Shown: one piece after another, positions 1,689 through 4,746 of the stretch
How positions within the stretch are numbered: the first letter of the stretch is position 1
Layout of the letters: each line of letters starts with the position of its first letter
DNA from: Microbacterium murale
GTDB lineage: Bacteria; Actinomycetota; Actinomycetes; Actinomycetales; Microbacteriaceae
Assembly (NCBI RefSeq): GCF_030815955.1
Contig: NZ_JAUSXK010000001.1
Coordinates: forward strand, 3,348,001-3,412,000
Reading direction: 5' to 3'
DNA length: 64,000 bases
Program-made: the position numbers and the translations under genes
The notes under the pieces: model-generated
Database searches by the model: none
What the model was told of the DNA's origin: nothing
Seen by the model: only the letters and a program-made list of their open reading frames with translations

Positions 1689-1753
1689 CGCCGATACGAT
1701 GGTTCCCATGGATCCTCTCGTCGTGTGCTCGGGCTTCGTCGGCCTCACCGTCG
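1689..1753 (+). repeat. Copy of the glf promoter and 5' end
   Basis: These 65 bases align without gaps to 4682-4746, the promoter and first codons of glf, with 7 mismatches counted by eye (about 89% identity). Both copies have the same orientation and bracket the GtrB/GtrA/GT-C cassette. Similarity stops after codon 16, so this is a fragment and not a second glf. Confidence 0.85.
1695..1700 (+). promoter_or_regulatory. -10 element carried on the glf-derived repeat
   Basis: TACGAT lies 7 bp before the ATG at 1708, exactly as in the intact glf copy (4688-4693, ATG 4701). It would start transcription at the remnant ATG and drive the GtrB/GtrA/GT-C cassette. Confidence 0.55.
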
Positions 1754-1779
1754 TGCGCCCAGCGAAAGGCGTTGCGTGA
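1708..1779 (+). pseudogene. glf 5' remnant, now a 23-residue leader ORF
   Basis: The frame ATG..TGA encodes MDPLVVCSGFVGLTVV and then unrelated residues; the glf protein begins [16 protein letters not shown]. It is therefore a decayed copy of the glf start; the conserved Gly of the FAD motif is now Cys. Its TGA (1777-1779) overlaps the GTG start of the next gene (1776) as GTGA, the arrangement typical of translational coupling. It may act only as a leader that delivers ribosomes to gtrB. An alternative upstream ATG at 1699 is in the same frame. Confidence 0.75.
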
Positions 1780-2783
1780 AGAGCCACCCGTTGAAGTCGA
1801 TCTCGATCCTCGTTCCGATGTTCAATGAGGCCGCAGTGCTGCCTCTCTTCTTCGAGACGGTGGAGAAGGTTCTCGCGGAACTACCTGAATATCGCTTCGG
1901 GTATCTGTTCGTGGATGACGGCAGCACCGACGGCTCGGCAGACTTCGTTCGCGAGCTCGCCCGACGAGACTCCCGTATCTCCTTGGTGGTGCTCAGCCGG
2001 AACTTCGGCAAGGAACGAGCGATGCTCGCCGGGCTGGATGTCACCGAGGCAGACGCAACGATCGTGATCGACGCGGATCTGCAGGACCCGCCTTCGCTGA
2101 TTCCGCGAATGCTCGCTCTCTGGGAAGAGGGCTGGCAGGACGTCTACGCGCAACGCAGTTCCCGTGCTGGCGAGAGCTGGCTCAAGCGATCGACGTCGCG
2201 CTGGTACTACCGGGTACTGCAGTCTGTGAGCCGGGTGAGCATCCAGGCCGACACGGGGGACTTCCGTCTCCTCGATCGGGAGTGCGTGATGGCACTACGG
2301 CTGTATCGCGAATCCGAGCGAAACATGAAGGCGCTCTTCTCTCTGGTGGGTTTCCGCAAGATCGCTGTTCCGTTCGACCGTGATCGACGCGCGGCAGGAG
2401 GCACGAAGTTCAACTACTGGAAGCTCAGCAACCTCGCAGTCGACGGCATCACGTCATTCACCACGCTTCCCCTGCGGTTGTCTTCGATCATCGGCGTGAT
2501 CGTGTCCCTGGCGGCATTCGTCTACCTTGTCGTCATCGTCGTGAGAGCGCTCATTCCGGGTGGGGAGTCGGTTGCGGGTTACCCGTCGCTCATGGCGGTG
2601 ATCCTGTTTCTCGGCGGCGTTCAGCTGATGTCGTTGGGCGTCATCGGCGAGTACATCGCGCGGATCTTCAGCGAGACGAAGGCGCGTCCGGTCTACCTCA
2701 CCAGCGAGGTTCGGCTGGGCACCCCGGGGATCATTAACCAGCGTGGATCCGAAGTCCCCGGCGGCACCGATCTCGATGGTTGA
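1776..2783 (+). CDS. GtrB/DPM-type polyprenyl-phosphate glycosyltransferase
   Basis: 335 residues from the GTG at 1776, chosen because GAAAGG lies 6 bp upstream and the frame begins with the GT2 strand ISILVPMFNEAAVLP. DDGSTDGS and DADLQDPP (the DxD metal site) are typical of dolichol-phosphate-mannose synthase and GtrB/ArnC-like enzymes, and two hydrophobic segments lie near the C-terminus. Such enzymes load one sugar onto undecaprenyl phosphate at the cytoplasmic face. The next two genes encode a GtrA flippase and a GT-C enzyme, completing a three-part glycan-modifying system. The sugar is unknown. A longer frame reaches back to 1677, but it runs through the glf remnant. Confidence 0.92.
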   Translation: MKSHPLKSISILVPMFNEAAVLPLFFETVEKVLAELPEYRFGYLFVDDGSTDGSADFVRELARRDSRISLVVLSRNFGKERAMLAGLDVTEADATIVIDADLQDPPSLIPRMLALWEEGWQDVYAQRSSRAGESWLKRSTSRWYYRVLQSVSRVSIQADTGDFRLLDRECVMALRLYRESERNMKALFSLVGFRKIAVPFDRDRRAAGGTKFNYWKLSNLAVDGITSFTTLPLRLSSIIGVIVSLAAFVYLVVIVVRALIPGGESVAGYPSLMAVILFLGGVQLMSLGVIGEYIARIFSETKARPVYLTSEVRLGTPGIINQRGSEVPGGTDLDG

Positions 2784-3195
2784 AAGCAGGAGTGCGCGTT
2801 TCATCCTCGTCGGCCTGCTCAACACGTCGATCGATTTCGCGATCCTGTTCCTGCTGACTCGGCTCGGGGTGGGGATCTTCGTCGCCAACATGATCTCGAC
2901 CAGCGTCGCGCTCGTCTTCAGCTTCTTCGCGAACCGCTCGATCACCTTCCGGGCAGGGGGAGACAAGAGAGTTCAGATTATGAAGTTCGCCGCGGTGACC
3001 CTTGCTGCTTTGTGGCTCGTGCAGCCTGCGATCATCGGAGTCGTCTCGATGCTCCTGGGCGGTCTCATGGCCGAGCCACTGGTCCTTCTCGTCGGTAAGG
3101 GGTGCGCGACGATCGTGTCGATGATCTGGAACTACTTCCTGTACGCATGGTTCGTGTTCCCGTCGGCAGCAGAGCCTCGAGGAGTCCGCGAGTGA
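2776..3195 (+). CDS. GtrA family membrane protein (candidate flippase)
   Basis: 139 residues with four predicted membrane segments, beginning MVESRSARFILVGLLNTSID. RFxxVGxxNT..D is the family hallmark. GtrA proteins are thought to flip undecaprenyl-phosphate-linked sugars across the membrane. The ATG at 2776 overlaps the preceding gene by 8 bp; a GTG at 2743 would add 11 proline-rich residues and is less likely. The stop overlaps the next start as GTGA, so the three genes are tightly coupled. Confidence 0.88.
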   Translation: MVESRSARFILVGLLNTSIDFAILFLLTRLGVGIFVANMISTSVALVFSFFANRSITFRAGGDKRVQIMKFAAVTLAALWLVQPAIIGVVSMLLGGLMAEPLVLLVGKGCATIVSMIWNYFLYAWFVFPSAAEPRGVRE

Positions 3196-4637
3196 CTCGG
3201 TCGGCGGGCGTGTTCCTGCGCTGGACGATCGCGGGACTGATCGCGCTGGTCTTCCTCGTGTTCATGTCACCGACGACGAGCTTCTTCAACACCGTCTATG
3301 GCGGTGATTCCGCGATCTTCCGCGTGATCGGCAGCGCGATGCACCGCGGACAGGAGCTCTACGTCGACGTATGGGATCACAAGGGTCCCACCTTGTTCTT
3401 CGTCGAATGGCTGGGTCAGGTGGTTCACGAGGGGCGGCTCGGCATCTTCGCTCTGCAGGTCGTGTCACTGACCGTGTCTCTCGCCCTCATCATGTCGATC
3501 GCGCGGCGATTCACGTCTGTTCTCGGCACGGCCGGGATCCTGGCACTCGTGCTCGCGGTGCTTTCGTACACCTTCGAAGGCGGCAACCTCTCGGAGGAGT
3601 TCTCGCTCCCGTTCATCATCTTCGTCCTCTATGGTGCAGTCCGCGTGCTCGCCGACGACGAGAAGCCGGGCAGTGCACGCGAGATGATCCTGCTCGCAGG
3701 GATGGGCTGCGCCTTCGCGTTCACCTTCTTCATTCGGGCGAACAACGCCATGCCCATCGCGGGCATTTTCGCCGGCCTTCTCATCCAACTGATCCTGCGA
3801 CGCGCTCCGGTCGTCAAGCGCTTCGCCATCGCCGTGGTCGGCTTCATCCTGATGACCGGAGCGATCGTCGGCTGGTTCGCTCTACGGGGAACCCTGGACG
3901 ACATGCTCAACGCGACGTTCTGGTTCAACCTGCGCTACCTCGACGATGCTTCCTCGCGCTCCAAGGCACTCGCTTACGTGCTCACGGTCGTGCTCACGGT
4001 CGCGATGGCGGGTGCGGGAGTCATCGGGCAACTGCTGCGATTCGGTGCGCGGAGGTCGATTTGGGTTCTGGGCGTGATGCTGGGAGTCACTTCGGTCTAC
4101 GCGGTGCTGTCGCCCACGACGTCGTACGCGCATTACCTGACGCTGATCATCCCATTGGTCGTCCTGGGGGGCGTCATGCTGATGCACGCACTGGGTCCAC
4201 GATCGAGGAACATCATCGCCGTCATCATGATCGCCGCTTCGTCGGCGACGATCATGCACCAGGTGCCGAGCGCGATCAGGTACTACGGCGCTGTGCGCGA
4301 CGTCGAGGCTTCCTATCAGGGGCAACTCGATGACGTGCTGTCCGACGTACCCGAGAGTCGACGTGCTGAGGTCTTCCCCTGGTCGCTCCCCGCGACGTAC
4401 TACCTGATGACCGACACCCTGCCGACGTACAAGTACTTCATCACCCAACCGTGGTGGGGGACCATCGATTCGCGGGTCGTCACGGACACGGTCGCGCATA
4501 TCGAGCAGTCGCGACCGGAATGGGTTCTCATCCCCGCGACCGGTGCCGGAGACCCTGCGCTGCAGGGCCTGCTGGACAGCGAATACACCTCAGTGCGGGT
4601 GACCGACCGTTTCGAGTTGTTCGCGCTCGAGCGGTGA
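3192..4637 (+). CDS. GT-C type membrane glycosyltransferase
   Basis: 481 residues starting at the GTG that overlaps the gtrA stop (GTGA). There are about ten hydrophobic segments. The first extracytoplasmic loop has GGDSAIFRVIGSAM and WDHKGP, matching the acidic first loop of ArnT/PMT-like GT-C enzymes that use polyprenyl-phosphate sugars outside the cell. The C-terminal 130 residues look like a soluble outer domain. In position and size it corresponds to the serotype-specific third gene of Gtr cassettes. The acceptor is probably the glycan made by the neighbouring galactofuranan genes, which is inference. Confidence 0.82.
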   Translation: MTRSAGVFLRWTIAGLIALVFLVFMSPTTSFFNTVYGGDSAIFRVIGSAMHRGQELYVDVWDHKGPTLFFVEWLGQVVHEGRLGIFALQVVSLTVSLALIMSIARRFTSVLGTAGILALVLAVLSYTFEGGNLSEEFSLPFIIFVLYGAVRVLADDEKPGSAREMILLAGMGCAFAFTFFIRANNAMPIAGIFAGLLIQLILRRAPVVKRFAIAVVGFILMTGAIVGWFALRGTLDDMLNATFWFNLRYLDDASSRSKALAYVLTVVLTVAMAGAGVIGQLLRFGARRSIWVLGVMLGVTSVYAVLSPTTSYAHYLTLIIPLVVLGGVMLMHALGPRSRNIIAVIMIAASSATIMHQVPSAIRYYGAVRDVEASYQGQLDDVLSDVPESRRAEVFPWSLPATYYLMTDTLPTYKYFITQPWWGTIDSRVVTDTVAHIEQSRPEWVLIPATGAGDPALQGLLDSEYTSVRVTDRFELFALER

Positions 4638-4681
4638 TCGTGTCGGCCGCGCTCGTGGTGCTGATCAATCCATCAGCGAGA

Positions 4682-4746
4682 CGCCGATACGATGGATCCC
4701 ATGGATCTTCTCGTCGTAGGCTCGGGTTTCTTCGGCCTCACCATCG
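4682..4746 (+). repeat. Intact copy of the duplicated glf 5' segment
   Basis: Partner of 1689-1753. This copy continues into a full-length glf gene, so it is the source copy or the functional survivor. Confidence 0.85.
4688..4693 (+). promoter_or_regulatory. -10 element of glf
   Basis: TACGAT followed by 7 bp and the ATG at 4701; no ribosome site lies in between. A leaderless transcript is inferred, which also favours 4701 over the in-frame ATG at 4692. Confidence 0.55.

Follow-up and report, generated by a model that had tools for sequence, protein, structure and literature searches.

Gtr-type serotype-converting cassettes consist of three genes, encoding GtrA, GtrB, and a GT-C glycosyltransferase, that serve glycan modification. 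Here, we describe a gtrB-gtrA-GT-C cassette in Microbacterium murale that lies between two direct copies of the start of glf, the gene for UDP-galactopyranose mutase. It was found in a stretch of 64,000 nt (NZ_JAUSXK010000001.1, positions 3,348,001-3,412,000 of the forward strand; hereafter the window) of a 4.11-Mb genome. As in Gtr cassettes, the genes overlap and encode a protein with a GtrA domain, a PF00535 enzyme related to Synechocystis sll0501, and a large membrane glycosyltransferase. Unlike Gtr cassettes, this set is actinobacterial and neighbors glf-wzm-wzt instead of lying in a phage or O-antigen context, and its GT-C-like protein has no match in Pfam or NCBIfam at E 0.001. We lean toward the view that a resident glf was joined by DNA that brought in gtrB, gtrA, the GT-C gene, and, with them, a promoter and front end for glf.

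Two copies of the glf start around a three-gene cassette

Bases 1689-1753 and 4682-4746 of the window form a direct repeat in which 58 of 65 bases are identical (89%), including the first 14 (CGCCGATACGATGG in both copies), and each copy contains a TACGAT element (1695-1700 and 4688-4693) that ends 7 nt before an ATG (1708 and 4701). This was the first repeat family listed for bases 1-12000 of the window. It is not a chance similarity, because a 201-base query from the left, run against the whole genome with two places scored, recovered the right copy at E 5.7e-18, and because a 33-base pattern, with as many as 3 mismatches allowed, occurred in the whole 4.11-Mb genome at exactly two places, the two repeat copies, where the reversed control pattern gave zero matches. 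Only the right copy runs on into glf. Past base 1753, the left copy had no glf similarity beyond chance (shuffled sequences reached its local score in 82% of trials). The initial annotation had described a 58/65 direct repeat at these positions, a right copy that alone continues into glf, and three coupled genes (GtrB-like, GtrA-like, and GT-C) between the copies; the repeat listing and alignment, the end of glf likeness at 1753, and the overlapping open reading frames (ORFs) bear out each part of this description. The features are as follows.

1689-1753, plus strand: left copy, a stump of the glf 5' end (promoter -10 and 15 codons), 58/65 identical to the right copy
1695-1700, plus strand: TACGAT, a -10-like element in leaderless arrangement, 7 nt before ATG 1708
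1708-1779, plus strand: 23-codon leader ORF (MDPLVVCSGFVGLTVVRPAKGVA) made of the stump; its TGA (1777-1779) overlaps the gtrB GTG (1776)
1754-1775, no strand: joint of stump and cassette, a non-homologous junction; glf similarity ends at 1753
1776-2783, plus strand: gtrB-like gene for a polyprenyl-phosphate glycosyltransferase (PF00535; GTG start at 1776)
2776-3195, plus strand: gtrA, encoding a membrane protein (PF04138, E 2e-19; alternative GTG start at 2743)
3192-4637, plus strand: gene for a GT-C-fold membrane glycosyltransferase; the predicted fold matches GT-C enzymes
4674-4681, plus strand: CAGC-N4, the upstream part of a glf promoter motif unseen in GT2-arm starts
4682-4746, plus strand: right copy, with which the intact glf begins (promoter and codons 1-15)
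4701-5837, plus strand: intact glf for UDP-galactopyranose mutase (TIGR00031, 325.2 bits; cut-off 303.75)

The three genes overlap, with GTGA shared by the end of gtrA and the start of the GT-C gene, and the GT-C stop lies 63 bp before the glf ATG. The closest solved chains to the gtrB product are sll0501 (PDB 5ekp, E 6.6e-84) and undecaprenyl-phosphate Ara4FN transferases, and the product is 86-88% identical to those of three other carriers; a comparison with NCBIfam gave no equivalog at its cut-off. The set thus comprises the parts of a three-gene Gtr cassette: a GtrA-type protein, a GtrB-type enzyme, and, as the product of the third gene, an integral-membrane glycosyltransferase. Such a cassette would probably make a polyprenyl-phosphate sugar (GtrB), flip it (GtrA), and transfer it outside the membrane to a cell-surface glycan (GT-C). 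We infer function and substrate, the role in surface polysaccharide being suggested by the context, where glf, wzm, and wzt adjoin.

Empty sites, other carriers, and two kinds of glf flank

For comparison, we used 366 genomes of the genus Microbacterium (295 plus another 71), labelled below with G-numbers (G000 is the genome of the window); the named records among the closest relatives were Microbacterium. Three of the searches of this set scored at most two places per genome, and misses in them are no proof of absence. By a 2.2-kb stretch of rpoB, the nearest genomes are G278 and G213 (96%), and G172 is 93% and 88% identical on two contigs. The genes and spacer to either side of the features above are as follows.

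3-746, minus strand: NAD-dependent sugar epimerase/dehydratase-like gene (ORF named from resemblance), open at the window start and part of the GT2-type left arm
769-1653, minus strand: GT2 glycosyltransferase gene (PF00535), divergent from the left copy
1654-1688, no strand: intergenic flank of GT2-arm type, within a single blastn match of 1-1753 and without the CAG[CG] promoter motif
5848-7388, plus strand: ABC exporter genes of wzm-wzt type, following glf (PF01061, PF00005)

First, the uninterrupted GT2-glf junction that the initial annotation had proposed to look for in related strains was found, in divergent arrangement, in 17 other Microbacterium genomes, a lower bound among the fetched loci. 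The start-to-start distance is 48-253 bp in 15 of the 17 (54 bp in both G172 and G033), 931 bp in G090, and 1,737 bp in G173; here, the GT2 start lies 55 bp from the ATG of the left copy. In G172 (82%) and G285 (75%), a single blastn match runs unbroken from window base 1 to base 1753, and the left copy therefore occupies the position of glf in those genomes. Relatives of the epimerase-like gene adjoin GT2 in G172, G285, G155, and G173. G155 is broadly collinear over ~24 kb (-16952 to 6856), with breaks at unmatched stretches and at two short inverted matches mid-way; in that genome, GT2 lies directly before glf, the cassette is absent, and a nucleotide-sugar dehydrogenase gene lies left of the GT2 block, as it does in M. 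murale. A second dehydrogenase gene of M. murale (G000:C1:2840315-2841610, L169), ~0.5 Mb off, is 94% identical to the copy ~13 kb left of the window and adjoins another UDP-GlcNAc-2-epimerase-like gene, which is 75% identical to one left of the window.

Second, the cassette is rare in the genus. GT-C proteins with at least 60% identity occur in four of the 366 genomes: G000, M. bovistercoris NEAU-LLE (G128), and the metagenome-assembled genome (MAG) Sph363_bin42 (G162) among the 295, and MAG RH59_bin.022 (G367) among the other 71. Weaker relatives are present in G011 (37%) and in 13 further matches (28-32%). A search for the cassette in the nearest species, G213 and G278, gave no match, and non-Microbacterium matches in one scan of genome contigs had identities of 49% or less. 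The three other carriers have the same genes in the same order, with 60-88% protein identity; nucleotide similarity to them starts at base 1792, and protein similarity at residue 1 of RH59 GtrB, which corresponds to base 1776. As here, gtrBAC lies upstream of glf in NEAU-LLE and RH59_bin.022; the Sph363_bin42 contig holds no glf. These loci differ from ours in that gtrB directly follows a nucleotide-sugar dehydrogenase gene and no glf stump was seen, and NEAU-LLE and RH59_bin.022 also have two opposite-strand ORFs between cassette and glf, giving the order dehydrogenase, gtrB, gtrA, GT-C, two ORFs, glf. A more distant gtrB-gtrA-GT-C set occurs in G011 (L103:8594-11344; 60, 50, and 36% identity), and the fetched 19 kb around it had no glf match.

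A search for a second glf stump, in which extra glf matches in G150, G198, G083, and G148 were examined, found only the one described here: G150 has one full glf and one cut by a contig end, and the pieces in G083 and G148 had no glf match. G198 carries two full-length glf genes (L183, L184), each with ~83% protein identity to that of the window. The long GT2-glf gaps of G090 and G173 contained no convincing glf remnant, the best piece being 23 nt, inverted, with E 0.06. These gaps hold open-frame DNA (L086:574-1503 in G090; L177:16956-18691 in G173), an indication that the space between GT2 and glf took inserts more than once.

Third, the two copies have different left flanks. Among 66 distinct glf starts, selected by similarity to residues 31-378 only, the element CAG[CG]-N3-5-C[GC]C[CA]GATA was found at the right copy and at 24 of 48 other starts but at none of 17 GT2-arm starts (Fisher 9e-5, which is descriptive only, as the starts are related). 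The left copy lacks the CAG[CG] promoter motif, and the glf genes downstream of the cassette in G367 and G128 carry the motif of the right copy. Thus, the flank of the left copy is of the GT2-arm type, and that of the right copy is of the other type. Fusion of a GT2-glf arm with a gtrBAC-promoter-glf arm would give two such flanks, which would be unexpected after local or target-site duplication.

These flanks bear directly on the proposal that glf was duplicated in place and its first copy decayed, or that a mobile element made a 65-bp target-site duplication. Either event would produce two direct 65-bp copies, one of them truncated, but duplication in place is disfavored because the left flanks differ and only the right copy has the motif; what lies upstream of the right copy is a glf promoter motif of its own and not cassette or GT2-arm sequence, so that the repeats do not look like a duplicated target. 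Moreover, target-site duplications are usually shorter than 65 bp, and the three genes between the repeats include neither a transposase nor a recombinase (two are named by Pfam and the third is GT-C by fold). We consider duplication of either kind very improbable. Of the two readings in the initial annotation, cassette entry at the glf start has more in its favor, because empty GT2-glf sites have glf at the place of the left copy and because the cassette is rare in the genus; glf duplication followed by decay fared poorly.

The stump and its leader

Leaderless promoters in actinobacteria follow a rule by which TANNNT ends about 6-7 nt before the ATG, and both copies, at 7 nt, conform to it. 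In 34 of the 66 distinct glf starts, TANNNT precedes the start by 4-10 nt, and 17 more have a Shine-Dalgarno-like run without TANNNT. The stump retains a start of the TANNNT type, with -10, spacing, and ATG intact, while its coding bases have drifted. Of 46 coding sites, 29 are invariant in all 66 starts, and the stump deviates at three of these 29, each time with a change of amino acid (L to P, G to C, and F to V); it therefore looks free of glf constraint. Its 46-nt coding part cannot pinpoint the glf from which it came, as several genomes tie with its own right copy at 6 differences.

Because drift in the coding bases has spared the -10 element and its spacing, it is plausible that the stump acts as a working glf promoter for the cassette, giving a leaderless transcript that begins with the 23-codon leader. 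Translational coupling of leader and gtrB is likewise plausible from the arrangement, in which the leader stop overlaps the gtrB start in the way that the gtrA stop overlaps the start of the GT-C gene. A Shine-Dalgarno-like GAAAGG at 1764-1769 is common to the other carriers by eye only, and alignment of 1754-1775 with those carriers was no better than with shuffled sequences. The leader RNA had no special fold (z 0.08).

Origin of the arrangement and comparison with known routes

In the course of events that we favor, a segment with gtrB, gtrA, the GT-C gene, a glf promoter, and a glf 5' end would have entered a chromosome with divergent GT2 and glf. At the right end, recombination within glf would have rebuilt this gene with the imported promoter; at the left end, the segment would have been joined, without homology, to the resident glf near codon 15-16. 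The locus would have grown by a net ~2,993 bp (1754-4746), with the old glf start severed as a stump and glf left intact. The retained -10 and ATG of the stump would then start a leaderless transcript, on which ribosomes would read the 23-codon leader and stop on the overlapping gtrB GTG. Direction of transfer, promoter use, and leader use are what we infer here. In trees, GT2 groups with that of G172 (support 1.0), and glf with those of G213 and G278 (0.999) and then with those of G172 and G146 (1.0). This grouping of GT2 with G172, and the similar divergence of GT2 (0.50) and glf (0.44) from G172 at fourfold sites, make the GT2-glf unit look resident.

The direction may have been the reverse, with an incoming GT2-type arm that ended in a truncated glf replacing the DNA left of gtrB in a resident gtrBAC-promoter-glf locus. 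This reading would require an illegitimate end beside gtrB despite the homology on offer in glf, and it must contend with the rarity of the cassette, for which G213 and G278 gave no match. Cassette and glf are linked in other genomes too, the cassette lying between the dehydrogenase gene and glf in G367 and G128, and a resident cassette would also fit with a glf that is clade-native from its first codons and with left arms in the two nearest species that are unlike this one. However, the dehydrogenase gene left of the GT2 block recurs in cassette-free G155, so everything left of the cassette could be resident, and we judge the reverse direction unlikely. The gene order in G367 and G128 had also suggested insertion of a GT2-type block between dehydrogenase and gtrB; this was dropped as the leading view because G155 has dehydrogenase, block, GT2, and glf without the cassette, and its core is kept as the reverse direction just described. 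A circularised donor fragment, with gtrBAC, promoter, and first glf codons end to end, might instead have integrated by one crossover in the conserved glf 5' segment. That single crossover would account for the resident flank at the left copy and for the donor promoter and clade-native glf at the right copy, but the circular intermediate that it calls for is hypothetical, and none of the three cassette genes serves recombination or replication. Such an integration seems to us improbable.

Several observations weigh against entry of the cassette into a resident GT2-glf locus, or against parts of that proposal. Cassette and glf are ~3.8-3.9 kb apart in G367 and G128, compared to 63 bp here. The first 114 nt of glf are closest, of eight genomes, to those of the near species G213 (97%); with no donor tract visible in glf, the right crossover would have to sit very near the glf start. 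In the fetched stretches of the nearest species, G213 and G278, the GT2-glf arrangement is absent, so the case for a resident GT2 arm draws on the more distant G172. Promoter activity of the stump is read from the genus-wide -10/ATG pattern, and a sigma-70-type scan, which found no promoter at either copy, neither supports nor excludes one. Finally, the stop-start overlap of leader and gtrB could have arisen by chance.

The copies differ at 7/65 bases, and glf differs from that of the two nearest species at 0.30-0.33 of fourfold sites, which makes it likely that the event took place within this lineage after its split from them, although 65 bases give only a rough date. The initial annotation had called the event not very recent, which fits these figures and the absence of a cassette match in those species.

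The left neighbor of glf varies among genomes: it may be a dehydrogenase gene, GT2 (the 17 genomes above), or, in G213 and others, a distant same-strand GT2 with an epimerase-like gene. A nucleotide-sugar dehydrogenase gene ends within about 200 bp left of glf in at least 21 genomes, as read from match coordinates, and nine distinct starts have its TGA overlapping the glf ATG (CTGATGG; L143, L144, and L149 among the loci). This variation suggests that the glf start may be a genus-wide hinge, at which the glf-wzm-wzt side stays and left arms swap, bringing their own glf front end; here, the discarded front end would have become a leaderless promoter and leader cistron. We regard this idea as possible, if rather doubtful, because the search yielded a single stump and because matches would begin there even if conserved coding and promoter sequence were the sole cause. 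The CTGATGG overlap leaves no room for a promoter, and glf there looks operonic; elsewhere it looks leaderless or Shine-Dalgarno-like led. Where GT2 and the epimerase-like gene sit far off on the same strand (L118 in G213, L105, L106, L107, L122, L123, and L124), this end of the glycan block is 10-18 kb away from glf, which gives the impression of a block inverted with respect to the window's arrangement. In G172 (L093:8766-9932), an opposite-strand gene between glf and wzm starts, by eye, like a nucleotide-sugar dehydrogenase.

The locus suggests how a cell-wall gene can take in a cassette and still stay whole, and how a leftover gene start may turn into a promoter of the newcomers. Two known routes are comparable. 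Homology-facilitated illegitimate recombination makes one homologous and one non-homologous joint and would yield the outcome seen here, where it is deduced from the finished sequence alone. Some integrative elements restore the end of their target gene; as with these, the incoming DNA would have carried a replacement gene end, the gene is intact, and a stump lies outside. Unlike these elements, the cassette has no integrase among its three genes, no defined attachment site, and no sign of excision or repeated use. The mechanism is the familiar mosaicism of glycan loci, with an unusual leftover.

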